DNA of 64,000 nucleotides from Loxodes magnus (taxonomy: Eukaryota; Ciliophora; Karyorelictea; Loxodida; Loxodidae): positions 124,001 to 188,000 of the forward strand of contig CAMPDV010000368.1 in the NCBI GenBank assembly GCA_946699065.1. Direction: 5' to 3'. Shown here one piece after another: positions 18,581 through 64,000 of this stretch. The stretch's first letter is position 1. Each line of letters begins with the position of its first letter. The position numbers were made by a program, and so were the translations under genes. The notes under the pieces were generated by a model. That model was given only the letters and a program-made list of their open reading frames with translations, had not been told where the DNA came from and did not search any database.

Positions 18581-18581
18581 C

Positions 18582-18706: not shown

Positions 18707-21700
18707 ATGAATACCTAAGCTTCTTAGTATTGGGTTAGCGGAGGTATTTCCAACTAAATCTTGATAAACTCATTTTTTAGATTGTTAAGAAAATCGAGCT
18801 AAAATACTTTGAGTCTATCTAAAAGAGAAGAAGACCATAAGAAGGAAATTATCCAAGGAAAGAATTTGGAAGTGAATGATTAAGCTATATAAAAATCCCA
18901 AAATTTAAGATTATAAGATTTTGTTAGCTTGATAGAAAAAAAGGATTACAATATAAATGAAAGTCATATGGCAGCAATAATGTAGAATAATTTCTAAAGC
19001 AAAGTTGCACGAATACGTTTTCATAGGATTTAATCTCAATAAAATTCATTTAATATACTCTAAAGTTTATAAATTGACAAAAAACTTACTCAAGACAATG
19101 GTCATTAAAATGCTAAAACAGAAATAAATAATCGAAAAAGTAAAATCATTTACAATTTAGTTAACAAGAAGCTTTTAGGAGGAGGAGGAAATTCTGCATC
19201 TAAATAAGAAGAAGCAAAAATAATAGATTTATAAATGGAGGAAAATAAGCAAGAAAAGTAAAAAGTTTAAAAAAATTAGTTTGAAAAATGAATAAGCTAA
19301 TTAACATAAAATACAAAAATTGAGTTAGCTACTCAAATTAAAATTCTAAGGCCATCACCTTTTTTAATTTCTTAACTATTTTGAAATTATTTTAGTGAAA
19401 CCGATTTAAGTTAAATAACAGAAAAATAAACTGAATAAATTTCCTTTTCTTATATAAGCGATAAATTTCTAAAAAATGTAGATATATAATAAGAATAAGA
19501 TACAGATTAATAAGACCTTTTAGATTTTATTAGATAAGATGATATTTTAGATTTTTATATTGATGCAATTAAAGAAAATTTTCCAGGAAATGGCTTAGAA
19601 ATAAGAGCAATTGAAGAAATTTATAAATGCACCATTATAATAAAAACTAGATGAAATTTATTTTTGGATAGTCGTGGAGATGATTACGATCTTAATATAT
19701 AAAATGTAATTAAAATAAAATAAGTAAAGCCTGGGTACTTCGATGTTTGTACTGAAGAAAAATAAGAAAAATAAGAAAATTAAAATGAGTAATAAAATAA
19801 ATCAGTCTTCAGTGTAATTTAGAAATAAGCTTAATAGATAGAATAGTTTAAATTAACTTAATTAGCTTTATTCTCTGAATCTGATATCAGACATGAAATA
19901 GCAAACTTTATAAAAAAATAAAGCAATCAAGAAATTTAACTTTAGCTTTATTTCTGATGAATTTTATACTCTGACTTGATTCCTCAAACTATGAAGGAAG
20001 AATTCAAAAAATTCAAAGAAAATAAGCATTAAATCTAAAGCGAACAAAAGAAAATTGATGAATTTGAGAAAATTACAGAATTAGATATTAATAAGCTTAA
20101 AGAATACATAGATTAGGGAAGGTAAATTGCTTAAAAAGCAATATAATAAGATTTAGTAGTATTTTTAGGAATTACTGGAACCGGTAAAAGTACTTTTATT
20201 AATTATCTCCATGGATGTACTTTTGAAAAAGTAAAGAAAAATAATTAAAATGTTGCTGAAATATCTTCTACAGGAAAAAAAGCGATTGTAGAGCTTGGTC
20301 ATGGAAACATTTCAAAAACATTATTTCCTGAAGTGGTAATTGACGAAAATTTTATATATTGCGATTGTCCAGGATTTTATGATAATAGAGGCATTCATAT
20401 TGATGTTGCTAATTCTGTAAACATAGTATAAACTTTTAGATTAGCTAAAAGCATTCGAATAATTTTATTAATTGACTATTTCAGTCTTTGTTCAAATCGT
20501 TAAAATTGAATAAGTGAATTTATTAAGCAAATTGACTTTTTATTTGGTTCAGCTTTAATTGCAAGCGATTATTAATCCTAAATTCTATTAGGAATTTCTT
20601 AAGTTCCTTCATACTCTTCAAATTTGCCAATTGATCCTAACATAGATTCAATAAAAGAAGTTTTACGTAATTCTGCATAATAAACAGAAAATGATATTCT
20701 TGAGGGTTTTATAGACTCTCTTTTTATCTTTAATGTATTTGGAGAAAGTCTGCAAGGAGGACTTTGTAGAAACGAATTGATTGAAAGAATAAAAAGATTA
20801 AAAGCAATTTAAAATCCTTAAAGTGTATTTAAACCTCCTATAAATGATAAAGGACAAAAATTTATTTTAAAAATAGTGAATTTGTTTAGAGATCGTATAG
20901 ATAGATGACTTAAAAAGCAGAAATATAATTAATTAAAATAGGATTTATGTTTATTAGATTCTCTTCATATCATTGAAATGGAAGAAATTAAATAATTACA
21001 TTAAAAAAAGATTTAAGAAATAAAATAAAATTTAGAAGAGAGTTCAATAAATATCTCTAAATATCTTGTACAAAAGTAGTATTTTAAAGTTAAAAATTGT
21101 TTCTATATTCTCAAAGAACTATTAGAAACATAAATACCCTAATTAGAATATTTCATTAGTTTATAATAGACTTAATTGAAAACTTAATTAAATGAAAATT
21201 TGTATGAATAATAAATTAAAATAGAAAAATAAATTAAAAATAATGAGATTATGGATGCTATTTATTCTGCTTAAGATCTTAAATATTTTGAGTAATCTTT
21301 TTCTTAATTCTTAAGTGATATAAAATTAAAAATAGAGAAAATTATTAATAATGCAAAATAATAATAAGAAAATATAATAAAGTAATGAATGAGATAAAAA
21401 GATCCAAAATAAGTTGAAATGAATTTGATTAATCTCCAGAAAATTGAAAAATATGACTTTCTATAGCTTTGTAATGTAGCAAATAAAGCAATGTAATCAA
21501 TTGTTAATTATATTGAAAGTGATCCAAATATTCTTATTGTAGCGAGTATGTTAAAAATTGGAAATAATAATGATATAATAGAGCGCTTTTTCAGAATTTC
21601 TGTTCCAATAGATTATTGAAAAAATTATGAAATAGGATATATAGTATTTAAATTCAACAAAATCGTCGACTAAAAATTGGAAGATATAAATGAAGCATAT

Positions 21701-24700
21701 AATTAAGAAGAATTTGAGAAAGCAGATAAATTAATTTTATCATGCTAGACCATGCTATAATATTATGACTAAGAAAATTATTTAAAAGATAAATTAGTAG
21801 ATATGGAAGGGTTAAAAAAATCTTGCATAAAGAGGTAAAAATTGCAATGGTAATAGAATACAAAATGCATATAAGAAACTATAAAGCTTATTTCATAAAA
21901 ATAATAGAATAGTTAAGAAAATATTTTTTAATAATTATAAGATTAACTTGAAGTGTGGATAAAATAAAAGGAAAAAGATTGACTGGAGGTAAACGCTAAA
22001 TTTTTGTATTTCTTCTAATAAGTACTAAATAGCACTTTTGATTTTTGTAATGAAGCCTGCTAATAGTAAGATTTTGAAACAGTATTATAAATAAATTAAA
22101 TATCAAGTTTAATAATGTTTTAAGATTGATTTGTTAAAAAAACTGACATTTAAAAAAAATGGCAAAAAGTGTAAGATTAAATGATTAAACAGCATACGCT
22201 ATTTCACTTAGATTTATAAAATTATTTTATAAGATGCAAGCGATAAATAGAAGAAGAAAGCTTTTCATAAGCTTATATCTCATTCGAACTTATAGAAAAT
22301 AAATGAAAACATTAAGAAGGCGAAATTAAATAAGAAGTCAAGCAATTATTATAATAAATTTATTAACTTATAACAGAAAAACTTATATATTTCTAAAAAA
22401 TATTATAAAAAGATCTAAATGAAAAAAAGTATAATTAAAATAATTGAATAGAAAGTTTAGAGCCATATAGCAAATTTAAATCTGCCATTTAAGCCTTTTA
22501 GACCTAAAATTAAAACTTAGAAAATTTTCCCTAAATTTAAGTTACGGTTGAAAATGATTTCGATTAAATAAGATAAGGAATTTTAAAAAGATAAAATTAT
22601 TTGCATTTTTAGATTTTAGAGTTTTTAAATATTTTAAAAAAGGATGAAATGCTTCCTGAAGATAAATTTTTAGATGCTTCTTAATTAATATCATAATTAA
22701 ATGTTTATAAAAAAAATTTAGACAAAATTTAGCCATGAATTCCTTAAATTAGTATAATTGAAGAAATATTGCAGAATATATTATAATAAATTAACTAAAT
22801 AATTTAGAAAATTAGCTTTAGATTAGTAGCAGAAATAGAAGCAAAAAACTTTAAATTAATAAAATAACTATATGATCAAATATAATATTCTTAAAATTAT
22901 TTTGGTATTCATGGAATAAATACTCAAATTAATTAATTTAAAAATTAAATTAATTTAAAACTAAAATAAATTGTAGAAGAAGCAGAAAAGGAAATAAAGA
23001 ACTTTTTATTTGAAGAAAAGCAAAAAAAAATTTTTAAGTTCGAAGAAAATTTAAATTCTCTAATTTTATTACGTTAAGCTAATAGTCTAGATTATATTAT
23101 AGATTTGAAATTAATAACTTCTAGTTTTGAACATGTATTTTAATAATTATTTAAAAATTATATGAGCAGCTTTTAATAGCCAAATATGATTTAATAATCG
23201 AAGATGCGCGAGAGTTGTGTAACTAGAATAATAAAGATTAAAATTTTATTATTCTATATGTCATCTTACTAAAGTTTTCAATAATATTCTGAACGTTAGA
23301 TTATTTAAGAGCTTTTAGATTATCATTGTTCTGAATGATAGAAAACAGCTGATTAATCTCAAAAGAACGATATGAAAAATTCGTTTTATTTTACCCTGGG
23401 AAATTAATTATCCGAGATTTAAAAAAGTCAAGAAAACATTAGTAATTATATTAGTTAACTTATAGCTGACTTTCCAGAATTTAAAGAAAAAGCAAATCAA
23501 ATTTTTGAAGAAAAAACTAAAAATAAATTTAATTATTAAGATTCATTAAAAGCCATTTAAAATTTTAAATAAATTGATGAAGTTTCGTTAGATGAATAAG
23601 CTTTGAAAGAAGCTGTAGATGAATATTGGAAAGAGTATTAAGAAAATCTATAAAAAGCTATTAATGAAGATTTAGAAGTATATATGGCTAAATAAAGAAT
23701 TTTAAAAAGAGCAAAATATTTAAAATAATAGATTCATGAGATTTTTCCTCTTGAGAGAATTTAAGAATCCAAAATTGTAGTAGCTTAAATATTAGGATGT
23801 ATTTTTTCTTTATTTTCTATATTGAATACTGGATGATAAAATATTCCGAAACAAAAATATGCTTTTACATAACCTCAAATTATTTAAGTTTTAACAATTT
23901 TTAAGTTACTTGGATTTGATACAAAAGATGAAATATAAAACCATTTGATATAAGTTGGAACAGGAGAAGGAAAATCATTGATTCTTGGTGGCTTAGCAAC
24001 TTTACTGATTTTTCTTGGCTATGAAGTTAAAGTTGCATGTTATAATTCTTATTTAAGCGAAAGAGATTTAGACTTATTTAGATCTCTATTCTACAGTGTA
24101 AATGATTATAGTATTGTATATCAAAGTTTTTCTGGCTTATCTAATTCACTTATGGAAGATTACGTAGGAAATCTAAGAGATTACACTATAAAGCTTATAA
24201 AAATATAAAAAGTTAATAATAAAACGAAATAATTAGATAAAGAAAAGTCTATTTTATTAATAGATGAAGTAGATGTTTTTTTTGGATAAAATTTCTATGG
24301 AAATACTTATGGAGCTTTAGTACATATTTGTGATGAAAAAATTTTTAATTTTTAATAACTTATTTGGGAATAACTAAAATAATATAAGAATGAAGAATAG
24401 GTCTAACGTATTTCAGCTGGAGATTAAAAAAATGTTTTAAATTACGTTTAAAAATCAGATATATTTTAATCTTTAACTAATTAATTTAATTTAAGAAATG
24501 TTTTAGAAAAGATTACGATTAAGATGATCAATCATGCTTCTTAAATATTAAATAAATAGCATACTTATATATGAAGCAATTAATAAAAGAAAGTTGGGTA
24601 TTTATAAAACGATGGAACTATAAATTATCATAGTTTTAGTGGATATTGTACTAATTTTGCATATTTTTTTGAGTATGATAAATATAATTATGATATAAAA

Positions 24701-25636
24701 GACCTATAAAATGAACTAGGAATTATATTTAATTGCGGATAATTTTCTTATGCTGAGGTTCCTAATTATTTTTCTTATATTTTTGGAGTAAGTGGAACAT
24801 TGGAAACTTTAAATGAAACTGAAAAAAAAATCGTATAAAAATATAAATTTAACAGATAATCTATAGCACCTTCTATGTTTGAGAAGAAAAATATAATTAT
24901 TAATCCCTTGAAAGTTTTTGATTCTTCTGAATTGTAACTTGAAGAAATAAAAGAATAAACTATAAATTCTATTTTTAAATAAAGAGCTGTTATAATAGTT
25001 TTTGAATCTTATGAAAAATATAAGGCATTTACAAATAATGAAAATATAATGAAGGATTTAAAGGAGATTTGTCCTGTTATAAACTCAATTAAAGAAAAAA
25101 CTAGTTCAAAGGTTAGGTAAACTTTAATAAGACAAGCGGCAGTAAGTTAGTAAATTACTTTAATCACTCGTGCTTTTGGAAGAGGTTCTGATTTTATTTG
25201 TCACGACCGTGTTCTCAAAGATGTTGGAGGAGTTCACATAATATAAACTTTTTATTGTGAGAGTGAAGCAGAAGAAGTTTAAATAAAAGGAAGAACGGGG
25301 AGATAAGATGACCCAGGAGAATACAGTCAAATTCTTTGATGGTAAGATTTATAAAATATATAAATTTATAATAAACCTGTTTAAAACGACTATTTATAAT
25401 TAGGAATAAAAAACTCAAGTATAAAAGATTTTTTGGATAAAAAGCGAAAACTAAACTGTTAAGATACTTTAGAATAGAGATTAAAAAATGTCGAAATATC
25501 TAAATAAAAGCATGATAAAACAGTAGAATTAGCAAATGCAGCTATAGAATAATCCGAAACTTCTAAACAGAAAGCAATGGAAATTTTATTTTCATTCCAA
25601 AATTTTAACTATTAACATTTAAATTTATTAATTTGA
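18707..25636 (+). CDS. Giant GTPase-like / SecA-like motor fusion protein (copy 1, complete)
   Basis: Read with TAA/TAG = Gln and TGA = Trp, one uninterrupted frame of about 2300 codons starts at the ATG at 18707. Residues 1 to about 480 are unrecognised, with a GGGG stretch and a Gln/Glu/Lys-rich linker. A P-loop GITGTGKST (about 488-496) is followed by DCPGF (about 553), the G1 and G3 pattern of a small-GTPase-type domain; a clear NKxD is missing. About 1000 residues of charged helical sequence follow. The C-terminus is a SecA-like motor: Walker A GTGEGKS (about 1751), Walker B DEVD (about 1853), TRAFGRGSDF (about 2154) and GRTGRQDDPG (about 2195), the last two matching SecA helicase motif types. 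No signal peptide or membrane segment is visible, so a cytosolic nucleotide-driven machine is inferred. I counted about 17 TGA and 7 TGG Trp codons. The end is uncertain: TAA at 25613 or TGA at 25634 could be the stop. Confidence 0.9.
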
Positions 25637-25984
25637 TTTACTTTAAGTAGTTTATATTTAAATGAAATAGATAAAAAAATTTATAAACTAAAAAATTTTT
25701 AGTTTTAATGTTTATTTGTCAATCTATCACTTAACGAAGAAAATTATTTAGATCTAAGGCTTAAATTAAGATATTGAATGGATAATTATTAACTTTATAA
25801 ATGAATCACATTTTTAAACTTTCATCATTATTGATATTTTTATTCATTAAATTCTAAGTAAAAATCATAGAAATTTCTAAAAAATTACATTTTAAATGAT
25901 TTTTATAGTTCGTATCTCTTAGAAAAAGTCAAATAAAATAATCCATAAAAACGTTTAAAAAATAATTTATTATAGATAGTTAAC

Positions 25985-26880
25985 TTCAAATACAAAATTC
26001 AATGTTTGACGCTCTTGAAATTTTTTATTCTCTTTTCCGCTAGCCTCTAGATTACTCTAGAGGTAATTTTAAAAGTTTGAAAGTCTCTGCATCTCTTCTC
26101 CTTAATATGCTTATGGTTCTAAATGTAAATTTTCGCCTAGATTATCTTTTATCTTGTATATTTTCCTAATTAATTGTAATATAATTTTTCGTTTTTTTAT
26201 TATATCTGAAATTGTATCTTCTTTTTGCTCTCAAACTTCTTCTAGTAGTTTTAATGCTATTTTTTCAAATCGTAAAATTTCTAACATCTTTTCCATAGAT
26301 GATTTTGAGAGATACAATAATAGTATTTTTTCATTTTTATTTATGTTTAATTTATAGCTTTCTACTCCTTAGATTATCATTGGATTATTTCCTTATTCTC
26401 TTAGTTCCATTTAACTCTGAAATTTTTGATAATAATTTTCCATTTTTCTATCTTTTTATCCAACACTTTCTGCTTCTATAAATAATTTTATGATTGGCTG
26501 CCCTGGTTTAAATGTTTCAGAAGGTGTTAAGATTCCTTAGATCATGAGTATTTATTCTATTTGCTCTGCATCTTCTAGTTTTTCCATCAGTATACCATTA
26601 TTTTTCTTCAACCTTTTTACTTTTTTGGAGATTAAGCACCATTTTATTATCTAACCATAGCTTAATTACTTTTTTGTGATTTTATTTGAGATTTCCGAGT
26701 GTATTATATTTTTCGCCTTTTACCTAGGCTTCTTTTCAGAGGTGGGAGATTCGATTTGGAGGGGAACTTTTTGATGCTCTTTTCCTGGTCCTAGCCTCTC
26801 TAGAATATTGTTAGCTTTTACTTTTTTGGAGTCACGAAAAATTCTGATTTGAATCCTTATATTTTTTCAATTTAGATAGT
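25985..26880 (-). CDS. Family E coiled-coil protein (intact copy), unknown function
   Basis: One minus-strand frame runs from about 26880 to about 25985; checked codon positions at 26833, 26587 and 26011 are in register. Blocks include KNIR, RIFRDSKK, NNILERL, then YGQIIKWC, ILMEKLEDAEQIEQ, QMELREQGNNPM and, near the end, KFQERQTLNF. From about residue 95 the sequence is mostly Leu/Glu/Lys/Gln helices fit for a coiled coil. Trp occurs as both TGA and TGG. A decayed homologue at 28040-29280 has IFRGNKK, NNILEKL, ILMEKLE and QMELREQENVPM, confirming the frame. No initiation ATG is evident near the 5' end, so the start may lie upstream or the copy may be 5'-truncated. It resembles a retroelement ORF1 in build only, and that is a guess. 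It begins about 350 bp beyond the SecA-like gene's end and is convergent with it. Confidence 0.5.
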
Positions 26881-26989
26881 TAACTAAATAAGTAAATTAA
26901 ACCTGTAAAAATACTATATTTTAATATTGATATGTAGATGTAGCTGTAGATAAAAAGTTAAGATTAAAAATTGAGAAAACGACAATAGA

Positions 26990-27400
26990 TAAGTTACTAT
27001 CTGCATTCAATAAATTGCTGCTGCTCTTCTATAATAGCAACAACAACAAAAATATTGCTAATAATAAAAGAATAAAAAAGTGTTACAGCAAACAGAATCT
27101 TAATAGAGCGATTAGCTTTTTTAAGTTATTTAATTAAATCAAAATTTGGTTAATTAAAAGCTTTCTATTATTAGAGCTAATTATGAACATACTGATTATG
27201 AATTCATAAATGTAGATTGCTTGAAGTCCAATTTTAGTAATTTTTAATGGTTAAAAATTTAATTCAATCCTTAAAATCTGACTATCAAACATATAAGCTT
27301 ATCCAAATATTGAGTAAGGCTATTGACTATTACTCAAATAAAAAAATTCAATTTAAATAAAATAGCCAACTTAAATTGATAAAAAAACCGCCTAAAAGCA
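26990..27400 (+). pseudogene. Broken inverted copy of the LRR-like gene
   Basis: Matches the first 400 bp of the minus-strand gene at 55900-56960. NLNRAISFFKLFNQIKIWL is in one frame, but a missing base near 27192 (ATACTGATTATG against ATGCTGGATTATG) moves YEFINVDCLKSNFSNFQ to another. A CAA/CAACAA-type Gln-rich stretch at about 27020-27060 precedes it. Similarity is lost after about 27330. It lies between the two family E copies. Confidence 0.4.
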
Positions 27401-28039
27401 ACTATTCTTTAACTTTTAGTGACAATTATAAAAAGTGAGCTAAACTAAGAGTAAAGTAATTACATAATCCTTTTCTATAATTTAATTAATGTTTCCTATA
27501 TCTAAGAAAGCAAGATTTGAGGTAATCTTAATGAGGTTCTTCGACTTAACATAACACAAGATATATAAATCGTATCGTGTTCATATATCGCCTTCTTAAT
27601 GTTTTTAAATATATTATTTATATTATTCAATTTAAGTTCTAAGAAAACAATTTGGAGTTTAACTGAACATCTTTATCCTAGTAGCAATAAATCCTCTTCC
27701 ATCATAATTAAATTATTTTACTTCTTCATTAAAATTTCTGATTTCAAAGCCAATCTTTAGCCTGCTTTAAATGATTTACCTTGATAAAATTCTTTTCTAG
27801 CCTTACTAATGACAAGGAAATTACAAGAAATAAAATGAATCTAATAATTTATTAAACTTTGAAGAAGGCGATAGTATGAAAAGAAAGGTACCTACAATAA
27901 TATAATATACAAATTTTTAGCTTTTAAATAAATTAACTAAGTCATAATTTGTAAACTAAAGACTTCTAACAGTAAATATACATAAGATTTAAATTTTTAT
28001 TAATAGCTACTAAAATAATTCTATTTATAGAACAAAAAG

Positions 28040-29280
28040 ACGAGAAAAAATATCAGGGTTTATGCAAAGATTTTTCGCGGCAATAAGAAAACAAGAGTTA
28101 ACAATATCTTAGAGAAGCTATTTCCAGAAAAAGGGTATCAAAGGGAGTTTCTCACTTCTGAAGAAAAGTATGGGAAATAGGCAAAAAATTATGTACTCTG
28201 AAGTCTCGAATCAAACCACAGAAAAGTAAATAAGCTATAATTAGCTGATAAAAGTGGTGTTGAACCTCCAGGAAGATGTCAGGAAGCTAAAGAAATATAA
28301 TAAGATACTGATGGAAAAACTTGAAATTGCAGAGGTAATAGAATCAAGACTCATTACCTCAGAAAGAGACCTTAAAGCATTTTGAAACATTTCACAAGAC
28401 CAGTATAGCCAATCATAGAGCCAGATCTAAAAATAGAAAGAGATGAACGAAAGAATAATAAAAATATAATAAAATTTACAAAATTTGTAGCATTAGATGG
28501 AACTAAGAGAATAAGAGAATGTACCTATGACAATTGAAAGAGAAAAAAACAAGATTTAAGCCTAAACAAGAAGCAAAGAAATACTAATACTGCAACTCTC
28601 AAGCACATCTGTGGAAAGATTAGAAATTTCTCGTATTAAATCTTCTAGAAGAAATATAAGAATAAAAGAAGAGACAATGACAATGACAATTAAAATGAGA
28701 ATAATTAATTTCAGAAATTCAGAAAAATATGCAAGAAAAAAATTTATTATTAAATATTATATAATTTAAATAGGGTGGAAAACCCTCTCCTTTGGATACT
28801 GCTTGGAGGCCCAGCAAGGCAACAAAAAAATGAGCGCGGACGGAGGATAAATCGGAAGAAAAGAAACCAATAACAAGAGAAGGAAGATGCTACAAGCTGG
28901 ATTACTCTGAATGCCAGAAGGAAAATTTCTTCATCATAGGTCGGGGAAATGTACCCGTAATCGCATATTGCATCCTATGGAAGGAAAAATTAAACGGACG
29001 TACCACAGGAAGAGAAAGCAAGATAGAGAAAAAAAAAATATTTTTTCGACATTAAATAAAATTAATTTAAAGAGCTGTGCACCTAAGAGAGTGCTACGCG
29101 CTTTATAATCGAATTTATTTATTTATTATTATTTAATTATTTTAAAGAATAAATCATATACTAATACATAACAAGGAAGAAATTTATTGAAACTTACAAT
29201 TTTTTATTATTATCCTTTGGAGTAATCTAGATATTATTCGGAAAAGAATCCTTCGAGAACGCCAATCATTTAATTTTTAT
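28040..29280 (+). pseudogene. Family E, decayed copy with GC-rich 3' part
   Basis: Homologous to 25985-26880 in opposite orientation, forming a loose inverted pair about 1.2 kb apart. Conserved blocks are spread over two frames. KNIR, IFRGNKK, NNILEKL and TSEEKYGKQAKNY are in one; EVSNQTTEKQISYNQLIK, ILMEKLE and QMELREQENVPM are in another. At least one frameshift therefore lies near 28190. Between about 28770 and 29050 a GC-richer insert with no counterpart in the 26-kb copy appears; the shared 3' end (GGAAAAGAATCC, then AACGCC) resumes at about 29220-29275. Confidence 0.5.
29076..29100 (+). other. Hairpin motif, copy in GC-rich 3' part of family E relic
   Basis: TGTG and CGCG can pair around a loop that ends GTGCTA. 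The related hairpins at 40933-40956, 44332-44355 and 1647-1670 pair with different bases. This copy has one extra loop base. Confidence 0.4.
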
Positions 29281-29499
29281 CTAATCTTTTTTATTTGGAA
29301 AATAAAGAATAATTCCTGCGATTGCTATTTTATATAAGAGGATACTAGTATGAAATGTAACTTATTTTTATTTACTATTATTTGATATAAAAAATAATTA
29401 TATAAGTCATTTAATTGACATTATTTATAGTAAAAGAAAATAGCTAATTGTTCTTTGCATCCAATTTTTTAATTCATGTTTAGCTACTTTATTTACTTT

Positions 29500-33235: not shown

Positions 33236-33239
33236 AAAT

Positions 33240-35935: not shown

Positions 35936-35939
35936 ACCA

Positions 35940-42715: not shown

Positions 42716-43606
42716 AGGCCTAGTTATAAAATTTACTTTCCCCAATTATATCAATTTTGCTTGAATAAGAAACTTAATAGATATATATCGGATAAATATA
42801 TTTTATTCTTAATAGCTGTTATAATCAAACTTTTTACCATTATTTATAAAGACTTAATGCTTTATAATATGATAAAATGCTTTTATAACATTATATCATA
42901 TTTACATTTTAGACTTATTCCCTTTTCATTTTAAGTTTTAATATTTTTATATATCATATAAAAGCTCTTTTACCATAGTTTTAAATCTTATCATCTCTGT
43001 ATACTGTATAGTAAAATATAATTTAAGATTTATAAATATAAGCCATATCTATTTTATTTAACCATCGTATAAACTTTATCTTCATATTAAGGGCTCCAAA
43101 CTTTTTTTTCATCCCAGCAATTATTTTAAATTAATTTTCTTATTTTTATTTTTAGCCAGTTTAGCTTCATATTTTTCTACAAGCACCATATTTACATCTT
43201 TATAGCTCCATTTCTATATTCTCTACCATTGCTTTCACATATAAATTTCTTAATTTATATAAGTTATTACCATCGCTTCATTGCGGATAAAGTTCTTTTA
43301 TCAGCATTTTAGATTTTATCTATTTAATGGATAGCAAAATAAAGTTAATTTTAGTATTAAAGCATTTTGTTTCTTAATGAGACTAAACTCTCTTATATGT
43401 AATGCTATTTAACCTGAGTAAATATTTTAATTTCTCTTATTTCTAAAATATAGTGAATTATGAAACATTTGTTTAAAATTATAAAGATTGTGACTAAGTT
43501 TAAAATAAATATTTCTAGTATATTTAAAATACCTTCAGGACACACTATTACTCTGATTATAAGCTATTTATATAAGCTTTTAGTATATTATTATGATATA
43601 TATAAA

Positions 43607-44472
43607 ATGGCTTCTAAGAAATAACAGAACTTTGAGCAAAACATTTAAGCAGGAAAATTCTCTAAAAAATAAAAAAGCGAAATAATTACAATGAGTGAAA
43701 GTGAGAAATATGATTGATATGACGAACATTAACCACTTGGAAATCCAGAATTAAAATAACTTCCGACATAAACTCAAATAGAAATATTATCTAAGTCATT
43801 AAAAGAGTTTATGTTTAAAAATAGATACCTCACTGATAAAGTAGAAAAATTAGAAAAATTAATAACGTCTTTACTTGAGAAACAATATTAATCATCATAA
43901 GAAATAGAAAACAAACTGGAACAAAGAATTCTTTAAATTTAATAATAAATTCAGGTAACGCCATTTTCGATTTAACAGAATTAATCAGATCCTATGGAAA
44001 TAGAAAATGAAGTCTCAAATTAAAATAAACAGTAAACATTTATTTAAAATAAGTAGTAAATTTAAATTAAATAAGTGTTACAGGAATAATAGGTTAAAAG
44101 AAGAATAAAATGCTACATGTGCAATAAATAACACCAATGAAAATACTGCTACTAACTAAGCGAAATTTAAAGAAAGAATAAATAAGATATTTTTAGAAAA
44201 CTATTTAGGATATATCCAACATAAAGCGGAAAAATTTATAGAAAAAAATTCTTTAATTCAAATCTTAATCCTTGGATAAATAATTTGGAACGTTAAGTGA
44301 AAGACCAAAACTATTCCGAATATTAAAGGATGGTGCACTAATGAAATGCTACACCGCCTAACTAAGCCTAGTAGAAATTCAAGACAAACTAATAGAGACA
44401 AGCTGATATAATAGGTCAGATGGCTGACTACTAAGGCTTTAACAAAGCTTTTTAACTTTAACTTTAACTTTA
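43607..44472 (+). CDS. Gag-like protein with coiled coil and CCHC-type knuckle
   Basis: The frame from the ATG at 43607 runs without a break under the reassigned code; a second ATG at 43691 (MSESEKYDWYDE) is also possible. Residues about 75-95 form a Leu/Glu/Lys coiled coil. Residues about 170-182 read CYMCNKQHQWKYC, a CX2CX3HX4C pattern close to the retroelement zinc knuckle but one residue short between Cys2 and His. An inverted copy lies at 1538-2405. Between copies many changes are silent in this frame, including TAG/CAG, TAA/CAA and TAA/TAG pairs that are silent only if TAA and TAG are Gln. No reverse transcriptase follows. The homologous unit ends in a TTTAAC repeat at about 44472, and the true stop is unclear. 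An ORF1/Gag role in RNA binding is inferred. Confidence 0.6.
44332..44355 (+). other. Hairpin motif inside Gag-like unit
   Basis: GGTG pairs with CACC around the loop CACTAATGAAATGCTA. It lies in the 3' quarter of the unit and overlaps the coding frame (MVHQWNATPP). The inverted Gag copy has the same stem at 1647-1670. Confidence 0.4.
44448..44472 (+). repeat. TTTAAC microsatellite at the end of the Gag-like unit
   Basis: Three or more TTTAAC/CTTTAA units close the homology shared with the inverted copy, where the matching AGTTAA-type run lies at about 1538-1556. Some non-LTR retrotransposons end in such short tandem repeats, so this may mark the 3' terminus. Confidence 0.55.
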
Positions 44473-44479
44473 TGTAGCG

Positions 44480-45890: not shown

Positions 45891-45897
45891 CTAATAA

Positions 45898-48615: not shown

Positions 48616-48619
48616 TTTA

Positions 48620-52850: not shown

Positions 52851-52854
52851 TAAA

Positions 52855-54804
52855 TCGAGTAAAGAAAGCTTTGCACTTCAGGAATATTTATGGTTTGTTA
52901 TTATAATATTATATTTAATTTAAAAAAGCTGCCTTTTGATTTAATAGCATTATCAGTTACTTAAATAAAATTATTAATGATACTATTAATTTATCTAGTA
53001 CCTCATTGCTAAAATTGCTTATACTTGCATATAGTTTAAATTATTAAGAAATTTCATTAGTTAAATATTAATAGCATTGATTATATATTAACCCTAAAAG
53101 CTTATAATAGTTATGCTAAATAAACAGGAAAAAGGAGAATTATTAGAATATTCTAAATAGAAATATATCTTTCTAGTTTACTTCTTATTAGCTATATTAG
53201 CTTTATCTATACTTTTAATAGCTAGTGTCTATAGGTACTAAAGTATGGTCTTTATCTTATTTCTTTCATACAATTTTTGGTAAAGGTTAATTTAAGACTA
53301 TTAGATTAAACTAATCTAGCTTAATAAATCTTAAGCTTATTATTAAATTGAAGTTTATAATTAAATCAGATTACTTCTAATATGCTTAATACCTTAGTTA
53401 CATATAGGCTAGATATAACTTTTAGAATGTTCTTGGTTATTATTATTTTATGTGTCTTAACTTTAATTTGATTAATTATAAGTATAAGTACAAAAATAGT
53501 ACCTTTTATGCAAACTATTATAAAGAAACCTTAGAATCAAAGAGAAATTATCAAAGATAAGTAAATCAAAATATGACTGATAAATGTAATGCTTATGTAG
53601 CTTAAGCAATACAAAATTGAAATCCAGCATTTGAACTACTAAAAATTGGAAATAGTAATAAAGCTCTTGGAAAAGGAAGCGAAATTAGAAAATTAAAAGC
53701 TATCTACAAATAGATGTTTAAAATTACAATGATATGAGTAGTTCAAAGCTGCTCTGGAAAGAAGATTGAAACTTAGCTAGATTTTACTAAAGTTAATTTA
53801 AAAATAAAATCAATAACTAAGCAAGGCAAAGGGAAAGTTACTTATTTAATATTAATGAGCTAGATTTAAAAAATAGTAGAAGCTTAATAAAATTGTTGTC
53901 TCTCTTTGTAGTTATTGATAGAAAATTAAGCAAACAGGTATTATTAGTAAATTTTTATTAAGAGATTAATAATCTAAATCTTAGAAATCAAAATAACTTA
54001 TAAAATCTGAAATTTATTTTAGAATCTTACAGGCTTGATAAAGTTCTGAAAAATAAGAATATTGAAATGGAATTTTGAGCTTTAATAGAAGTTGAGCCCA
54101 GTTTTTATCGCTCAAATTTAAAGATCAAATTTATTCGGAAATTTAAAAATTTAAAGTGCTATGAATGTAGGATGTAAAGTAATTCGTGAAAAAAAACTTC
54201 ATTTGTGAAGAATTATTTTAGAGAAGGCAAAATTATATCTGGTTAAGGAATATATTATTTTGGGGCTAAAATTTAAACGCATGTTGTACTGAGTTAGCAT
54301 TAAACTAGATAAAAGAAATTGGCAATTCATTAGTAGAGAAGCCAAAAAGGTAAGAGAACGGAAAAAGAAAGCAAACATCAAAATATAGCAAAAATTAAGT
54401 AAAATATTCTTAAGAAAATAAAGCTGAGATAAAGTGCTCATAGCTAAAAGAAATTAAAACTTATCTTAAAGCAAAGGGATTAGAACTTATTAACTTCAGG
54501 AATAAAAAAAACCTTATAAAATTTTAAAAAGAACTATAAAATTAAAGTATAAGAAAAGAAAAAAGGTTCTTAAAATAAAATAAAATGGACAAGCTTTTAT
54601 AAGGATAATAGAAATTGAAGAAAAAAGTTTAGCATTTTTCACAATCAACTTAAGTGAAGAGAAAATAATTATTATTATCCAATAAAAAATAAGGCTCCAA
54701 CAAAGGAAACTTAGTCAGATCAAAATTATTAAAAAAATTATTGCTAAAGTAGAAATATATTCCAACTTCTAGATAAAAGGATATAATAATTATAATTTAT
54801 AATA
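52855..54804 (+). mobile_element. Family T repeat, copy 2 (3'-truncated)
   Basis: Near-identical direct copy of about 13404-15342. It abuts the end of the 48620-52850 repeat, so it appears to cut that repeat short. Its match to copy 1 stops at about 54804, before the conserved FWYLIYFYILGS block, so it is truncated at its 3' side. A short stretch around 54060-54110 differs by insertion and substitution. Confidence 0.7.
53113..54804 (+). pseudogene. Family T protein gene, frameshifted and truncated
   Basis: Starts at the ATG at 53113, matching the start at 13663, and keeps the hydrophobic N-terminus. Small insertions and deletions near 54060-54110 and 54195-54210 shift the frame relative to copy 1. 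The block GKIISGQGIYYFGAK is intact again afterwards. The C-terminal part is missing. It is probably a dead copy. Confidence 0.5.
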
Positions 54805-55899
54805 AGATAAAGACTAACTTTCTGATTCTATTTAACTAACTGTTTAAATAGTCAGTACATCACTCTCTAAAGGTATCTTCCTAACTCACCTAAACTAAGA
54901 ACTAGAAAAGTTATATACTGTCTAGTAAACATCCTAGGAATTATAATACTTTGGATTAACTTGAAGATAGTGGCTTTTCTAATAGATATAATTAAATTTT
55001 AATTCTTTAATTTTGAAAGCATAATAGTAGTTTAGTATAACTAAACTGTTTATAAAAGGATAGCTTTCTAAGCAGCTTATTTATCTTAAGTAGCTTTTTA
55101 TTAATCATTTCGGATCATTAAATTCATTCTTATATCAATAAGTTTGATACTAAAGATCTATTTCTTATCTTATAAAGAGAAAAATTAATAGATTATGAAT
55201 ATTTTGCTTCTAATTACTTAGTGGCTTAGAAGAATAATAAACTAAAAATAAAGCAGGAAAAAGAGGTAAATTTATTTAGTTTGCTAGAGTAGAAATAAAA
55301 TTTAAGCTAGAATACTTTTAAGAAATACATAGATTTTAATTTTCCTCTATATTTAGTACCAAAGATATTTAAACTAAAAATGATTAATTATAAAAGATAA
55401 CTCTAATAATTATTGTCTTAGACTATTAGCATTAAATAATAAACTTAAGAAAAATAATAAGGTGTTTTAATACAATTATGATGAGTATGAATTAAAATAA
55501 ACCTAAAAGTCAATTTAAAAATATCTAATAAATTAAGAAAGCAAAAGAAGAAATAGTGTGATTAAAGTAATCAAAATAAGAAGATATAAGTCTACTAGAA
55601 ATGAGAGATGAATCGTGTAGCCTTAAATTGTTAAAAGTAATTATACTGAAAAACTTCTAATTTAATAGCTGATTATGCAAATGTTGACAACTCTCTAATA
55701 ATCAATTTTTTTAATATTTATCTTAAATAAAAAGTTACAAAAATTGATAATAACTAAGAGATTATTGAGAAAATAGCTAAGCTTATGAAGCTTATTTTTC
55801 TATTCTCTTAAGTTATCCAATGCTTATTGCTTCTCCTAGTTTTTTAAACTAGTTTTTCTTTCTGATTCAAATACAAAGTTTATTTTTTATTCTTTGTTT

Positions 55900-56960
55900 G
55901 ATCTTATAAAAACTCCCCTTCTAAGTATAATTTTTATTTATATTTCACACTATGAAATGTTCTATAATTAGCAATCTTCTTCTGACTTTATTAAATTTGC
56001 ACTTCGTATTGATTTAAAAAATTAAGTTCTGTTCTTGCAAAACAAATTTTTCTTCTAATTAAGAATATTTTTTATTTTATTTTGTCTTAAGATTTCTGTT
56101 TGTACCCTTTCATCTCATAGGCTATTTTATGGATTGTTGTATTAGAACTTCTGATTAATATATCAAAGTAATTTCTTAGTTAACATTTAGTATCTGCAAT
56201 CAGAATCCTTAGTTATCAAGCAGCAAACTTAGTTTATATAATTTTTCTTTTACTTTCCTTAGATTTAGCTTCTCTTTCATCTTCTTTAGTCATCTATCTA
56301 TTATATAACTCTCTTCTTAATTCTTAAGAGTTCTTAGTAATCTCAAGATAATAAATCTTAACAATCCAAATAATTACTTAATGCCTCTAACTATGGTATT
56401 CATTTCTAACGAGGTTAGACTTTAAAGAGTTTACTATTCCAAATATATCCAAAGCTTGGTCTTAAGGCTTAAGTGAATAATACTCTTATTATATTAAACT
56501 GTAAGGCTAATAGTAGAGTAATCAGTCTAGCAAGATTGCTTGTTTTAAGTAAGCTAATTAGAATTTAGTAGTCTGAAAATTAGTCTATTAGATACCTCAG
56601 AATTTTGCTTGCTATATATCAATTTAGGTATTGGATTAACTTAAGATAAGATAACTCAATACTTTGGATAAGCCTATCTGCTTGATAGTTAGTTTTTAAG
56701 GATTGAGATAAATTTCTAAGTATTAAAAATTACTAAAATTGGATTTCAAACAATCTACATTTATGAATTCATAATCCAGCATGTTCATAATTAGCTCTAA
56801 TAATAGAAAACTTTTAATTAACCAAAACTTGATTTAATTAAATAACTTTAAAAAGCTAATTGCGCTATTAAGATTCCATTTTATGTGACCATTTATTATT
56901 CCTTCATTATTAGCAATATTTTTTCTGTTACTATTATAGAAGAGCAGCAAATCATTGAAT
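55900..56960 (-). CDS. LRR-like helical protein, unknown function
   Basis: A minus-strand frame is in register at 56857, 56755 and 56269. It begins with a hydrophobic stretch (ISFLKLFNQIKFWLIKSF), then FINVDCLKSNFSNFQYLEIY, NPQKLTIKQIGLSK: the spacing of Asn and Leu resembles ciliate-type leucine-rich repeats. Later parts are charged and helical (TKEDEREAKSKESKRK) with FDILIRSSNTTIHKIAYEMK. The inverted partner at 26990-27400 differs in this frame partly at silent positions (TGC/TGT, AAG/AAA, CTG/CTA, AAA/AAG), which supports coding. Start and stop are not fixed. The gene lies directly beside the 56970-57478 direct repeat. Confidence 0.4.
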
Positions 56961-56969
56961 GCAGATAGT

Positions 56970-57478
56970 AATTAAAGCTAAGTATTACTAAATTCTGTAA
57001 AGATAGAAATAAAAAAAAACAATATCATAGAAAAGGTTGGTATGTTCTGTGACTTCTAATCTTTGTCACATATTCTAAGCATAAAAATGTATTTAATATC
57101 GCTAGAATAACTTAATCTTTTACTTTAGTATTTTAAATATATAATAGAGAAACAAGATTGAACAATAGAATAATAAGCTGTAAATTTTGTCCAAGACTAA
57201 TAACTTTAAAATAAGAGATATTCTATCTAAGAACTTAATATGTCTTCATTGATTTTATACAAAGCAGAGACTAAGTCACTATAAAAGCAGCACCATTATA
57301 TTATTATAAAATCTTAAGAGTATATGTCTAAAATATTCTTCTTTGACAATTAAAGTAAAAAAGATAAAAAGATAAATTAATTTATTGATATTAATCATAT
57401 ATATTCTTTATAAATCCTATGATAGTGGAGTTATATTGCTATTACTTCTTTTATTTATAAATATATAATATAAAGCAT
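56970..57478 (+). repeat. 0.5-kb direct repeat, unit 2
   Basis: Second unit of the repeat at 42205-42715, in the same orientation. It begins right next to the 5' side of the LRR-like minus-strand gene. The two units end within a few bases of each other, at TATAATATAAAACATAAG / TATAATATAAAGCATAAG. Confidence 0.75.
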
Positions 57479-57479
57479 A

Positions 57480-58800
57480 AGACTAAGCTTAAGAATTTAA
57501 TGAGCTATTGAGTTTAAATTTTAATCTCTAAAATTAAACTAAAAATACTAAATAAGATTGCTATTAATACTTCCTTCTTAATTTGATGTAAATATTACAA
57601 GCATAGAGTATTAAATTAATTTACCTTAAAATTAAAAGCTGGATACGTAATTATGTATCTATAGCCTATTACTATCAAATTTATCAATATAAGGTAAATT
57701 GTGACTATTTGAATCTTATTGACATCTATAATATGAACTATATGCCTATTTGTACTTCTATGTAATCTACTTGGTGGAGGTAATTTATACAAGTAACAGT
57801 AAATTTATCATTTTTTAAGGCTAGAAAGATATAAAATTGCTAATGTTAAGTTTGTCATTTCCAGCTACATCAACTATATTACCACTAAAGTGGTGAAGCA
57901 TAGTTAAGTAAAAAGTATATTTCCTTAGAAGATAAATTAGATAGGGATAACTTAGTACTTCTAACATCTTGCTGACCCTTATAACTGGTACCTCACGAAA
58001 CGATATAAAAGAGTAAATGATGAAGTTATATGATTTTAACTGAGTATTGTGCATATAATAATATAAGAATTACTCCCATATGAAAGAGGCTTAAGAAGCT
58101 ATTCTAATATTAAAGCTTGCTTAAAGTCTGTTTATCTAAAAGATATATAACAGTATGGGTAGTGTGAACTTAAAAGCTAACTTAGAGCTGAAACAATTTT
58201 TACCAACAATTATTATCAATAAAGCTTTAAAATATAAAGCTGAGTTAAATTATAAGCTAAGGAAGTAAAGCAACATTCTGGAGCTCAATAATATAAATTT
58301 ATTATTAAAAGGTAAAGATAAAATAGCAATTGAAATAAAGTTTTCGTATTTACTCTAAAATTTGTAGAAATTTTAACTAAATTGATATTAAGCATATCTA
58401 ATCTGATTAATTAAATACTCTAAATTTTAGTGTAGGTCTATAAACTATTAATATTAATAGACCATTATTTTAAAGGCTATTTACTTTAATTAGTTCTTAA
58501 AAATAGAGTATTTTACTTTTTAATGGCTTAATCTTTTACCCTGATGAATACTTTTATTAACATTATATTTTTATAGTAAAGACCCTTTAATGGTGATACG
58601 TTAATTAATTATTATTATTATTTTGAATTATTTTAAGATAAAAATAAAAGAAGTCTATGTATTAAAATTAAACAGCAATAGATATTAAAAAATAACAGAC
58701 AGATTCAACAAAGGTATTTTTCTACTAAAAGCAAGAGAAAAAGCAATAACCGTCAAGTTTTAGCCACACTTATTCTTTTAATTAGCCTTCTTATTAATAG
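57480..58800. other. AT-rich stretch, nothing recognised
   Basis: A minus-strand frame at 57821-58054 is open even with ordinary stops, but it has no paralogue, motif or neighbour that would support it. Confidence 0.35.
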
Positions 58801-58891
58801 ACTTAAATGAAGCAGAAAAACCAATTGATACAGAAACAAACAACTTAATACAAAATTTTTTGGAAAACCTAGGATAAAATTGAAATCTGCT

Positions 58892-59590
58892 ATGCAAAAA
58901 ATAGTGCGTGCGTTCAATTTTGGAAAAGAGCAAGTAAACCTTCTTAAATTAGCAGTGATGGTTTCTAATATCCAAGGTGATTTATAGAAATCGAAAAATA
59001 TTAATGTAAACTCAAAAAAGATTGGAAAAAAGGAAAGGAACTGGAAAGAACGAATTATAATTAAGATCGGAAGATAAGAGTTATTAGGAATAACAAATTA
59101 AATAAAATTAGTAGCCAATTCGAAAGAATCTGAAATCAAAAAAACAAAAGCAAAATAAACTGACCCAGTAGTGAAAATGGATATCGAAATACAAAAGTAA
59201 AATGAAACTAAGACTCAGAAAAAAAAGTTTAAAAGCTTTCCTTTTATAAAAAAATCATAGACGTAAATATCAAAGCAGATTTAAAAATTATGGTAAAAGA
59301 TACTGAAATTTGTACTTGGTAAATAGCCTCAATATTTTAATGAATAACGAAGGGAGTCATTCACAAGATGGAAAGGAATAGCATAGATTCACTACTAATA
59401 TCAAGAAGATTAGTGAAGAAATAGGAAGAATCTGAGTTTTGAAACTGTAAAATAATGGAAGTCCCAAATTTTTACTAAGAAATAGGGAGCATGATAAAAT
59501 ATCTTTCATAAAAGAGATAAATTCTTAAAAGGAAATCATTCTTAAAATAATATCATAATATCAGAATTATATATCACTTAAAATGAAAGA
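58892..59590 (+). CDS. Possible Lys/Gln-rich basic protein, unrecognised
   Basis: The frame from the ATG at 58892 reads MQKIVRAFNFGKEQVNLLKL, then LAVMVSNIQGDLQKSKN, KERNWKERIIIKIGRQELLG and a long Lys/Gln/Thr-rich stretch (KMDIEIQKQNETKTQKKK). In-frame codons upstream (FFGKPRIKLKSA) suggest the start may be earlier. Purine-rich composition on this strand favours coding, but a second frame also looks plausible and there is no paralogue. It precedes the second giant gene, in the same orientation. Confidence 0.3.
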
Positions 59591-60050
59591 TTGAATATTC
59601 AAATTTTTATGAGATTAAGAAAATTTATGCTCTTCATTTTGTTGAAGCTATAAATCGAAGTTATTGGTAATATTTTGCTAACATTTATATTAGACAAAAT
59701 AAATTTTATTTAGTTAAGAGACAATTATTTAAATTATTAATTTAAATGGTTAAAGAAAATAGTTTATGACTAAATTTTACGTAAAGACTAAATTAGAAGT
59801 ATTTATGACTGAAGACAAACAAAGGAGAAAGGTAATTGGAATTAAATAAATTATGTTTAAATAATTTAAAATTTATTTTAGTTTGATGCATTAAATATTA
59901 TTTTATATTTCCTTAATTTTCTATTTTTATTTATTTTTCATATATAACTGAAAATAAATTATGAAATAAGCTTATTATAATAGCTTTAATTTTCAATAGA
60001 TGATAAATATAAGCATTTCTTCTGGAATTTTTTTTCTTTTAAAGTTTATT

Positions 60051-60073
60051 GTCGTTTAATGAAGTTTAACGAC
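60051..60073 (+). promoter_or_regulatory. GTCGTT/AACGAC hairpin upstream of GTPase-SecA gene 2
   Basis: A single 23-nt inverted repeat with a stem of six to seven base pairs, 43 bp before the ATG. It shares the GTCGTTTA half and the spacer word GAAGTTTA with the doubled element before gene 1, while most of the surrounding DNA differs. Conservation next to two diverged paralogues supports a regulatory role. Confidence 0.5.
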
Positions 60074-60116
60074 TAGAATTTCTTTTAAATTTTTGAAGAT
60101 AAAACTAATTCAAATA

Positions 60117-63100
60117 ATGTCTACCTAAGCTCCTCGGCTTTGGATTAACGGTAATATTACTCAAATACATTTGGCGAACTCAATTTCATGATCGTTCAAC
60201 AATTCAAGTTAATTCACTTTTCATTAATCTCATGAAAAAGAAACTCTTATAAAGGAAGTTGGGTTAGAAAAGAACTTACCAATGAGTGGTTAAACTTTGA
60301 ATGAATTACTAATTTAAAACTTGCAGGGCTTAGTGACTCCTTTGGACAAAAGATAAAATGGTATAAATGAAACTTATAAATCAAATACCGTTCAATGTAA
60401 TTCCAATTGATTCACAACTTTATTAAACTTACCATAAACTAAGGCTAAAATCATAAAGGTTAAACAATCCCAGAATAATATTCAAATTATTTAAATTACA
60501 GGCATTTAAACTGATACTATTAAAAATAAAATTCAATACAAGTAAAAAATTTTAACCTTAATGAAATAAAAAATATTAGGAGGAGGAGGGTAACAAGCCA
60601 AATAGAATGAGAATGATAAAACTAGTTATAAAAACATATAAAGATAAAAACTATAAATATAAAATATTTAATAAGACAAACAAAAACAAAATGATTAACA
60701 AGAAAAACAAAAACAAAATGATTAAAAAGAAAAAGAAATACAAAATGATTAACAAGAAAAACAAAAACAAAATGATTAAAAAGAAAAAGAAATAAAAAAT
60801 GATTAAAAAGAAAAAAAAATACAAAATGATTAAAAAGAAAAAGAAATACAAAATGATTAAAAAGAAAAAGAAATACAAAATGATTAAAAAGAAAAAGAAG
60901 TACAAAATGATTAACAAGAATTATTATAAAAGTGGTCTGCTTAAACCTAAATTAATAAGGTAACTGAATTAGCTATTCATACTAAAATATTAAAGCCTAT
61001 ACCCTTTATAATCTCTTAGATATTTTAAAATTACTTTAGTGAAAGCATCTTAAATTAGATGAAAGATAATGATTCAATGACTCTCTCCTCTTTTCGTGCT
61101 TATATGATAAACCATCTTCTTAAAAATGTAGATATAGCAGAAGAATAAAATACTGATTAGTAAGAATTATTAGAATTTTTGATTTCTGAAGACATAGAAA
61201 GTTTTTATATCGATGCAATTCAAGAAAACTTTCCAGGAAATTATTTAGAAATAAGAGCTATTGAAGATGTTTATAAATGTACCATTATAATAAAAACAGT
61301 GTGAGACAAATGAATCGACAGTCAAGGAGATGATAGCGATTTTAATACATAAGATATAATTAAGATACAAGAAATAAAACCTGGATATTTCGATATCTTG
61401 ACTGAAGAAATTTTAGAAAAGTAAAAAGATTAGAAGAATATTTCAGTATTTAGTGTAGTTTAAAAAGCAGTTCAAAATATGGAATAATTTAAATTAACTA
61501 AATTAGCTTTACTCTCAGAATCTGATATCAGATATGAAATAGCAAACTATATAAAAAAATAAAGCCAAAAAGAAATTTAGCTTTAATTGTATTTCTATTG
61601 AACTTAATACCCTAATTTATTTCCAACAACCATAAAAGATTAATTCAATTAATTTAAATAAAGCAAAATCAAATCTTTAAGCTAACAAGAATAATAAAAT
61701 GATACTTAGAGTTATACAGAAGAAGATATTAATAAACTTAAAGAATATATAGATTAGGGAAAGTTTAATGCTTAAAAAGCTAGTTAAAAAGATTTAGTTG
61801 TGCTGTTAGGAAATACTGGAGCAGGTAAAAGTACTTTTATTAACTATCTTCATGGATGTAAGTTTGAATAAAAGAAGATAAATTAGAAAAAAGTAGTTGA
61901 AATATCTTAAAAGGGAAAAGAATAAATTGCAGATGTGGGTCATGGAAGTGATTCAAAAACACTACTTCCTGAAGTGATAGAAAGCGAAAATTTTACTTTT
62001 TGTGATTGTCCAGGGTTTTTCGATACTAGAAGTGTACACATTGATATTGCCAATTCAGTAAATATAGTTTAAACTTTAATGAAAGCTAAAAGTGTTCGAA
62101 TAATTCTACTCATTAACTATTTCAGTCTTTTTACAGACCGTTAAAAAAGCATAAAGGAATTTACTGATTAAATAAAATCTTTATTTGGTTCAGCTGAGGC
62201 TGTAAAGCGATTTAAATCTTTAATTCTACTTGGTATTTCTTAAGTACCTTCTGGGTAAACAGAACTACCAATTGATAACAATTTAGAATCAATAAAAGAA
62301 GCTTTAAGAGAAACTGCTTTCCAATCAGGTAATGCTATACTTTAAGATCTCTTAAACTCCCTTTTTATTTTTAACATTTTTGATGAGAGTCTTCAAGGAG
62401 GACTTAGTAGAAATGAATTGATTGAAAAAATTTTAAATACGCAAAATATTCGGAATCACTAAAACATATTTATACCTCCTCTAAGCAGCGAAAGCTAGAA
62501 TTTTCTTCTACAAATAGCTAACTTATTTAGAGATAGAATAGATAAATGAATTAAAAAGTAAAAGTACAGTTTATTAAAAAAAGACTTAAGCTTACTAGAA
62601 TCTCTCCATGTCATTGGAATGAAAGAAATAAAAAAGTTATGGAAATAAAAGATTTAAGAAATTGAGGATAAAATAGAAGAAACTACAGATATGTTCTATG
62701 AATTTATTGAAAATAAATAATACTATAAAGCTAAGAGTTTTTGGCATTTTCTCAATGAACTATAAGAAGTATAAGTGCCTTCATTAAAGGAATTAATTAG
62801 TTAAAAATAGAAATAATTGAATACTTAATTGGATGAAGATTTATAAAATCAAATACTTAAAATCGAAAAGTAAGTTTAATGCGATGAGTTTGAAGATGCT
62901 GCTATTTCTATTTAAGCTCTTAAATATTTCGAATCAATTTTCTCAGAAATCTCTTTTGAAATAAAATAGAAAGTAGAGGAATTTTTAATTGAAGCAAAGT
63001 GCAAACAAGAAAAAGAAATAGTCTAATGAGATAATGAAAAAGATCCAGCAAAGATAGCTACTAATCTGATTAATCTTTAGATAATTGAAAAATGCAATTT

Positions 63101-64000
63101 TCTATAACTTTAATGTTTAGCAGGAGAATAAATGCAATCAATCGTTAATAAAAATGAAGAAAATCCAATTCTTCTGTCTACAGCAAGAATTCTAATAAAT
63201 CAAAATCAAAACTCTTTAGTTGAACGCTTTTTCTGCATTTCCATTCCTATAGATTATTGATAAGATTTCTAAATTAGTAGTATACTAAATAAATTTGGAG
63301 AAATTGTGGAGAAGAAACTGAAAGAAATTAATGAATCATATTAATAAGAGCAATTCGAGAAAGCAGATAAATTACTTTAATCAAGTAGAAACGTTCAAAA
63401 ATTCTTATATTAGGATATGTTCTTAGAAAATAAATTGATTGAACTTGATTAACTAAGAAAGTCTCTTATAGAGTAGTAAGAAGAAAAATGAGTAAATAGT
63501 GCGAAAAACATAAAAAAAATACTAAAGGATATTAAATAGCAATCAGAAAGTAATTAAGAAAGCTATTTTAATCAGTTATAATAATAAGTTGAAATGTGAG
63601 CAAAACAAAAAGAAATAAATTGATTAGTTTAAAATACTTAATTTAGTTAATAATTAGAATATTCACTAAATTGTATTTTTAACTTTTGTAATAAATTTTG
63701 CTAAGAGTAGAGCTTTAAACTCTTAGAATAATTAATTTAACTATTAAATTAGGTTCATTTTGAAGAATAATTAGCTTAAAAACTTTAATTTTAAGACAAA
63801 TTATAAAAAATTATAGATGAAATGATTAACCAATATTAAAAAATGTATTTAGATTTAGAAAAATAAGGACAGATAATCGAAAAATTAATAGCATAAGAAA
63901 AATTTCCTTAAGTTTTAGCAAATTTACAAATTATAGAAAAAAAATGAAAGTAGCATGAAGGTTAGGCAAAGTAATAAACTTGACAATGTTTATAAAAGAT
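60117..64000 (+). CDS. Giant GTPase-like / SecA-like protein (copy 2, cut by window end)
   Basis: Paralogue of the gene at 18707, in the same orientation. The frame runs from the ATG at 60117 to the window edge, so only about 1294 codons are seen and the SecA-like motor, if present, lies outside. The N-terminus begins MSTQAP, matching MNTQAS of copy 1. The GGGG stretch is present, followed by a 27-bp tandem repeat coding for a nine-residue unit. The P-loop GNTGAGKST (about 565-573) and DCPGF are conserved, and similarity continues through the helical region. Trp is TGA about 13 times and TGG about 4 times, many at positions that are also Trp in copy 1. Divergence is high at the protein level yet the frame is intact throughout, which argues for a working gene and not a recent duplicate. 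Upstream lies a hairpin like that of copy 1. Confidence 0.88.
60679..60915 (+). repeat. 27-bp in-frame tandem repeat, about 9 units
   Basis: ATGATT recurs exactly every 27 bp, at 60691, 60718, 60745, 60772, 60799, 60826, 60853, 60880 and 60907. In the gene frame each unit codes for nine residues, roughly NDQKEKEIQ, so length changes keep the frame. Copy 1 has only a short Glu/Lys/Gln linker at this place. It is a probable flexible or coiled-coil spacer between the N-terminal part and the GTPase-like domain. On the other strand it produces a spurious Phe/Ile/Leu-rich open frame. Confidence 0.85.

Follow-up and report, generated by a model that had tools for sequence, protein, structure and literature searches.

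How are TAA, TAG and TGA read when all three recur in frame throughout long genes, and what then ends translation? Both questions are raised by a 64,000-nucleotide stretch of the ciliate Loxodes magnus (the window hereafter; C368:124001-188000, in an assembly of 705,730,643 bases in 7843 contigs), where an initial annotation had read TAA and TAG as Gln and TGA as Trp in two paralogous genes. We find that UAA and UAG encode Gln and that UGA encodes Trp inside genes, in several gene families. This decoding is not new: codes of this kind are known in karyorelicteans and Condylostoma, as the annotation stated, and this one has been published for L. magnus itself (PMC11441545). The reading as a whole, to which we assign a probability of about 95%, is that the window is L. 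magnus nuclear DNA in which all three codons are sense inside genes, with termination depending on how close a codon lies to the 3′ end of the mRNA, functional-looking genes A and B, and TGA as an ordinary Trp codon. Raw sequence confirms in this way a genome with all 64 codons sense inside genes. The two genes are the following.

18707..25615, plus strand: gene A, encoding a GTPase and SecA-like protein and running for 2302 codons up to the proposed terminal TAA
60117..64000, plus strand: gene B, paralogous to A and truncated where the window stops, its frame continuing to 67,256 (window-equivalent coordinates, contig C368)

Under this Gln/Trp reading, 18707-25636 comprises 2310 codons and 60117-64000 comprises 1294; the following 8 kb of the contig supplied the rest of gene B. 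The products of A and B are identical at 592 of 1214 aligned residues in the window, and at 1281 of 2298 once B is completed. Their homology stays in one frame, which bears out the claim that two diverged paralogues are open under the recoding. A P-loop GTPase is followed by a SecA-like region, and the only Pfam match above its curated cut-off is MMR_HSR1 in B. Upstream of the window, a third paralogue (copy C) starts at C368:112692, and across A, B and C the homology keeps one frame for some 2300 codons. The three copies lie in the same orientation within C368:112,692-191,300, spaced by about 30-40 kb, and more copies are present on contigs C40 and C17. Searching the genome with A returned 13 matches, the seven longest of which carry 5-23 in-frame TGA codons. 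In our view A and B look functional and belong to a small SecA-like/GTPase family.

Eukaryotic SecA-like/GTPase proteins (Tetrahymena, rotifers, Hydra, Hexamita) likewise have the SecA-like region after a P-loop GTPase, and the named SecA-like relatives among the matches listed are about 30-36% identical over the SecA part. The nearest relative of A among the matches listed is a metagenome protein, P0012 (JGI record, 2168 aa), with 43% identity. It can be aligned to A over nearly the whole length and is closer than any Tetrahymena copy among those matches; gene transfer is possible. No relatives were found in viral contigs, bacterial genomes or archaeal genomes.

Several features accompany these genes. 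The motif GTCGTTTANNGAAGTTTA occurs shortly before the start codons of A (18568-18677), B (60051-60073) and C (C368:112,512-112,691); before A it is found in two identical 49-bp copies, each with the inverted repeat GTCGTTTA...TAAACGAC. It may possibly serve as a promoter or regulatory element of the SecA/GTPase family. Gene B contains an in-frame 27-bp tandem array (60655-60920, 9.9 copies of a Gln/Lys/Glu-rich unit), of a kind that the repeat scan did not report in A. Outside the two genes the window holds diverged repeats, among them the inverted pair 1537-2400 and 43602-44465 (97%) and the pair 13403-15306 and 52853-54767. Just past B, on the minus strand of C368:191,646-195,668, lie coding-like stretches that by eye resemble reverse transcriptase. 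Rfam returned nothing on the window.

Gene A contains 18 internal TGA, 7 TGG, 199 TAA and 28 TAG codons; for B the figures are 13 TGA and 4 TGG up to the window end, rising to 19 and 9 at full length. The annotation had counted about 17 and 13 TGA; the count for B was exact, and that for A comes to 19 when the TGA at 25634 is added to the internal ones. Aligned TGA and TGG sites include the following.

19652..19654, plus strand: TGA of A facing TGA at 61302 in B (A/B alignment)
19958..19960, plus strand: TGA of A facing TGA at 61599 in B (A/B alignment)
20906..20908, plus strand: TGA of A facing TGA at 62547 in B (A/B alignment)
21386..21388, plus strand: TGA of A facing TGA at 63027 in B (A/B alignment)
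21617..21619, plus strand: TGA of A facing TGA at 63258 in B, and Trp in P0012 (alignments)
21980..21982, plus strand: TGA of A facing TGA at 63621 in B, and Trp in P0012 (alignments)
22304..22306, plus strand: TGA of A facing TGA at 63945 in B (A/B alignment)
19289..19291, plus strand: TGA of A facing TGG at 60933 in B (A/B alignment)
21848..21850, plus strand: TGG of A facing TGA at 63489 in B (A/B alignment)
21956..21958, plus strand: TGG of A facing TGA at 63597 in B, and Trp in P0012 (alignments)
61302..61313, plus strand: two TGA of B (61302 and 61311), each facing Trp in P0012

Seven shared sites in the window agree with the earlier figure of at least seven, and ten are found over the 2298 codons aligned with B completed. 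Exchange between TGA and TGG had been described at two sites (19289/60933 and 21956/63597); both stand, and a third, 21848/63489, had been missed. TAA codons face TAG, CAA and CAG in the A/B alignment, so the described swapping at Gln positions is real. In the alignment with copy C, 34 columns carry at least one TGA: ten have it in all three copies, six mix it with TGG, and the remaining 18 contain no TGG and, in one copy or more, a different residue. Over a 1020-codon core, 17 of 23 residues encoded by TGA, taken as Trp, are conserved, a level second only to Pro (30/34) among the classes counted. TGA makes up 0.78% of the in-frame codons of A and 1.00% of those of B, values that are not in themselves unusual, since the five other frames span 0.65%-4.56%. 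Nor is the preference for TGA peculiar to this codon pair: TGA outnumbers TGG 31:11 (31 of 42 Trp codons in A and the window part of B), and the A-ending share of other two-codon boxes is similar (GAA:GAG 254:37, AAA:AAG 300:80).

For an outside view, P0012 was aligned with A and B after masking every stop codon in them as X. P0012 has no more than 10 Trp among its 2168 residues, yet Trp lies opposite 8 of the 24 TGA and 3 of the 8 TGG; the eight TGA cases correspond to six distinct Trp of P0012, because A and B share columns. The summed BLOSUM62 score of TGA against P0012 is 55 for Trp, the next residue being Tyr with -1. For both TAA and TAG, Gln is the best matrix residue, narrowly over Glu (TAA: Gln 176, Glu 160).

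Genes outside this family decode in the same way. A kinase search of the genome gave 136 matches, nearly all carrying in-frame TAA, TAG or TGA, and the first 40 of them in list order were aligned. One column, which we take to be the DxW site, consists of 27 TGG, 10 TGA and 3 Tyr. Trp is the commonest other residue in the columns of 20 of the 29 kinase TGA codons, and its enrichment is 81-fold in columns with TGA and 85-fold in those with TGG; the most enriched residue for TAA and TAG is Gln (5.0- and 5.8-fold). Three stretches, presumably MORN-like, were chosen by eye from 18 coding-like segments of the contig. Their aromatic position, after Y/F-x-G-x (n=23), is encoded by TGA seven times and by TGG four times, the others being Phe (5), Tyr (3) and other residues (4). 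The assignment of TAA and TAG to Gln and TGA to Trp is upheld, then, in A and B through the P0012 alignment, in copy C, in the 40 kinases and in the three MORN-like stretches.

If all three codons are sense inside genes, the end of gene A has to be looked for by other means. L. magnus is assigned NCBI table 27, with UGA as the only stop (PMC11441545), and two codons compete at this end.

25613..25615, plus strand: in-frame TAA at the end of homology, the proposed stop of A (3′-end comparison)
25634..25636, plus strand: in-frame TGA, seven codons after the TAA, the stop by the published UGA-only code (3′-end comparison)

The annotation had carried A through to 25636; the TGA at 25634 is probably not the stop, and the in-frame TAA at 25613 fits better. 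More generally, UAA as well as UGA may terminate near the mRNA 3′ end in L. magnus, making its code closer to the Condylostoma type than to table 27, an alternative to which we lean slightly. It is a rival to the published UGA-only rule; with our main reading it is compatible, UAA being a second, context-dependent stop. Eight genome matches extend at least to query residue 2281, and the 3′ ends of six were compared: A, B, C, C17a, C17b and C40. Five of the six (A, B, C, C17a, C17b) share a conserved ...FQ[ND]F[ND](Y) followed by TAA, which is the first stop-like codon past the conserved FQ, 3-4 codons on. Across this TAA, GC drops in all five copies from 0.24-0.29 to 0.07-0.12 in the next 20 codons, and the coding log-odds per codon from 0.09-0.16 to between -0.08 and 0.03; the next in-frame TGA comes 7 (A), 21 (B), 17 (C), 147 (C17a) and 63 (C17b) codons later. 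The 20 codons leading up to the TAA (100 in the five copies together) include 14 Gln codons, of which none is TAA, five are TAG and nine are CAA or CAG, and they include no TGA; TAA accounts for 561 of the 806 Gln codons across the bodies of A, B and C. Ahead of the later TGA, TAA is at its usual level, with 9 in 100 codons (the proposed stops make up two of these) compared with 8.1% in the gene bodies.

The published account offers a parallel, as UAA and UGA, unlike UAG, are depleted over roughly the last 20 codons ahead of L. magnus stops (PMC11441545). The same depletion is seen here before UAA, and a shortage of UAA but not of UAG is what UAA stops would cause. The chances are, by a small margin over even, that the karyorelict code has wrongly been given UGA as its only stop and that the UAA depletion near L. 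magnus gene ends would be a trace of UAA stops. Against termination at UAA, the evidence comes from one gene family of related copies, with the 14 Gln codons falling in few columns. In a control that keeps this relatedness, 148 of the 2274 columns aligned across A, B and C are preceded in every copy by a 20-codon lead just as empty, so that such a lead alone arises by chance in about 6.5% of cases; among the 46 columns with TAA in all three copies, the lead is empty at two, one of which is the proposed stop. The C40 copy has TGA directly after FQ, with TAA TAA four codons further, and the published account itself has UGA as the only stop (PMC11441545). In the CDPK-like kinases L001, L003 and L006 a TGA occupies one common position, and where GC was measured, in two of them, it drops afterwards, which by position suggests UGA stops at the ends of this gene group (3/3 read). 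Left out of this stop comparison were kinases L004 and L007, where the alignment overran any plausible gene end, and the ends of L002, L005, L007 and L008. Overall, the gene ends read in L. magnus present UAA and UGA as candidate stops and UAG at none.

We considered whether a short intron at the 3′ end might take the frame beyond the TAA and rejected this by eye: A lacks a GT between its TAA and its TGA, and in C17a the first GT past the TAA has no AG within 25 bases. Titles and abstract openings on termination in Loxodes and karyorelicts contained no claim of UAA stops, a scope that does not extend to the 2022 Peer Community Journal paper on the karyorelict code. Were UAA stops real, karyorelict translation tables and gene models would need correction, and karyorelicts and Condylostoma would follow one principle, in which position decides, rather than two codes.

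The remaining alternatives concern the decoding itself, for which we retain Gln at TAA and TAG and Trp at TGA. TGA might encode an amino acid other than Trp, such as Cys or Tyr. P0012 has Cys opposite 3 of 24 TGA, and in eight more distant relatives Trp is found opposite none of 40 TGA. The same eight have Trp opposite 8 of 24 TGG, seven of the eight cases being at one site; as judges of the meaning of TGA, distant relatives are uninformative to unfavourable. Within the A/B alignment, TGA does not always lie opposite Trp: 7 of the 24 aligned TGA in the window (12 in A and 12 in B, the seven shared sites being counted from both sides) have Gln (2), Tyr, Ser, Arg, Phe or Lys opposite them, which is unsurprising at the roughly 50% identity of the two genes. 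The kinase Trp column, the MORN-like position, the exchange with TGG and the best matrix score all point to Trp, and we consider another residue highly improbable.

We attach equally little weight to the idea that a ciliate with TGA as a stop carries A and B as decaying pseudogenes, their TGA having been derived from TGG by mutation. TGG to TGA is a common transition, and the surroundings are repeat-rich and lack Pfam matches in the stretches scanned (E≤0.01, all stops read through, nine 5-kb stretches around A and B in six frames; the scan left out 10.0-12.4, 17.4-18.7, 30.7-34.6, 54.6-54.9 and 59.9-60.1 kb). Decay is nevertheless at odds with a single frame kept over some 2300 codons in three copies and with TGA at ten columns common to all of them. 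Differences between A and B at codon positions 1, 2 and 3 are 0.325, 0.228 and 0.354 and dN/dS is 0.49 (1020 aligned codons), and the kinases and MORN-like stretches decode the same way. Even less credible is repeat-induced C-to-T mutation of duplicated genes (CAA to TAA, TGG to TGA), which would be expected to yield TAA at Gln and TGA at Trp in duplicated genes lying in AT-rich, repeat-rich DNA, but is contradicted by 505 transversions against 421 transitions, by (CpA+TpG)/(ApC+GpT) ratios of 1.31 and 1.19 in A and B that are not lowered relative to the flanks (1.12-1.13), and by kinases outside the duplicated pair that share the decoding. Constraint, substitution spectrum and other genes led us to reject both processes.

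Whether a codon is stop or sense would be decided by its nearness to the mRNA 3′ end, and UGA would be read by a tRNA-Trp(CCA) with a 4-bp anticodon stem, as published work implies. A tRNA of this type is reported from Loxodes (PMC13092985). ARAGORN found no tRNA genes in the window or in 266,659 bases of the contig. The L. magnus macronuclear (MAC) and micronuclear (MIC) assemblies measure 706 and 848 Mbp and are repeat-rich (PMC11441545). The GC content of A and B (22-24%) counts against our main reading, as published L. magnus CDS have 33.5% (PMC11441545).

Among known systems, the code in the window coincides with that described for L. magnus under table 27 in having UAA and UAG as Gln and internal UGA as Trp, and differs where that table has UGA as the only stop (PMC11441545) and the ends of the A/B family look like UAA.

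The code of the heterotrich Condylostoma magnum is NCBI table 28. As here, all three codons are sense inside its genes, and UAA is reported as one of its stops; its UGA usage is 0.042% (PMC4967479), compared with 0.78% in A and 29 of 10179 codons in the 40 kinases. In Amoebophrya sp. ex Karlodinium veneficum, UAA and UAG are likewise proposed to encode Gln and UGA Trp, and a 4-bp anticodon-stem tRNA-Trp(CCA) was found; unlike L. magnus, this organism is a dinoflagellate parasite, and its assembly measures 127 Mb (PMC12005148). The trypanosomatid Blastocrithidia nonstop also reads UGA as Trp and uses UAA both as sense and as stop, but its UAR codons encode Glu, in place of the Gln encoded in L. 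magnus (PMC12153298).
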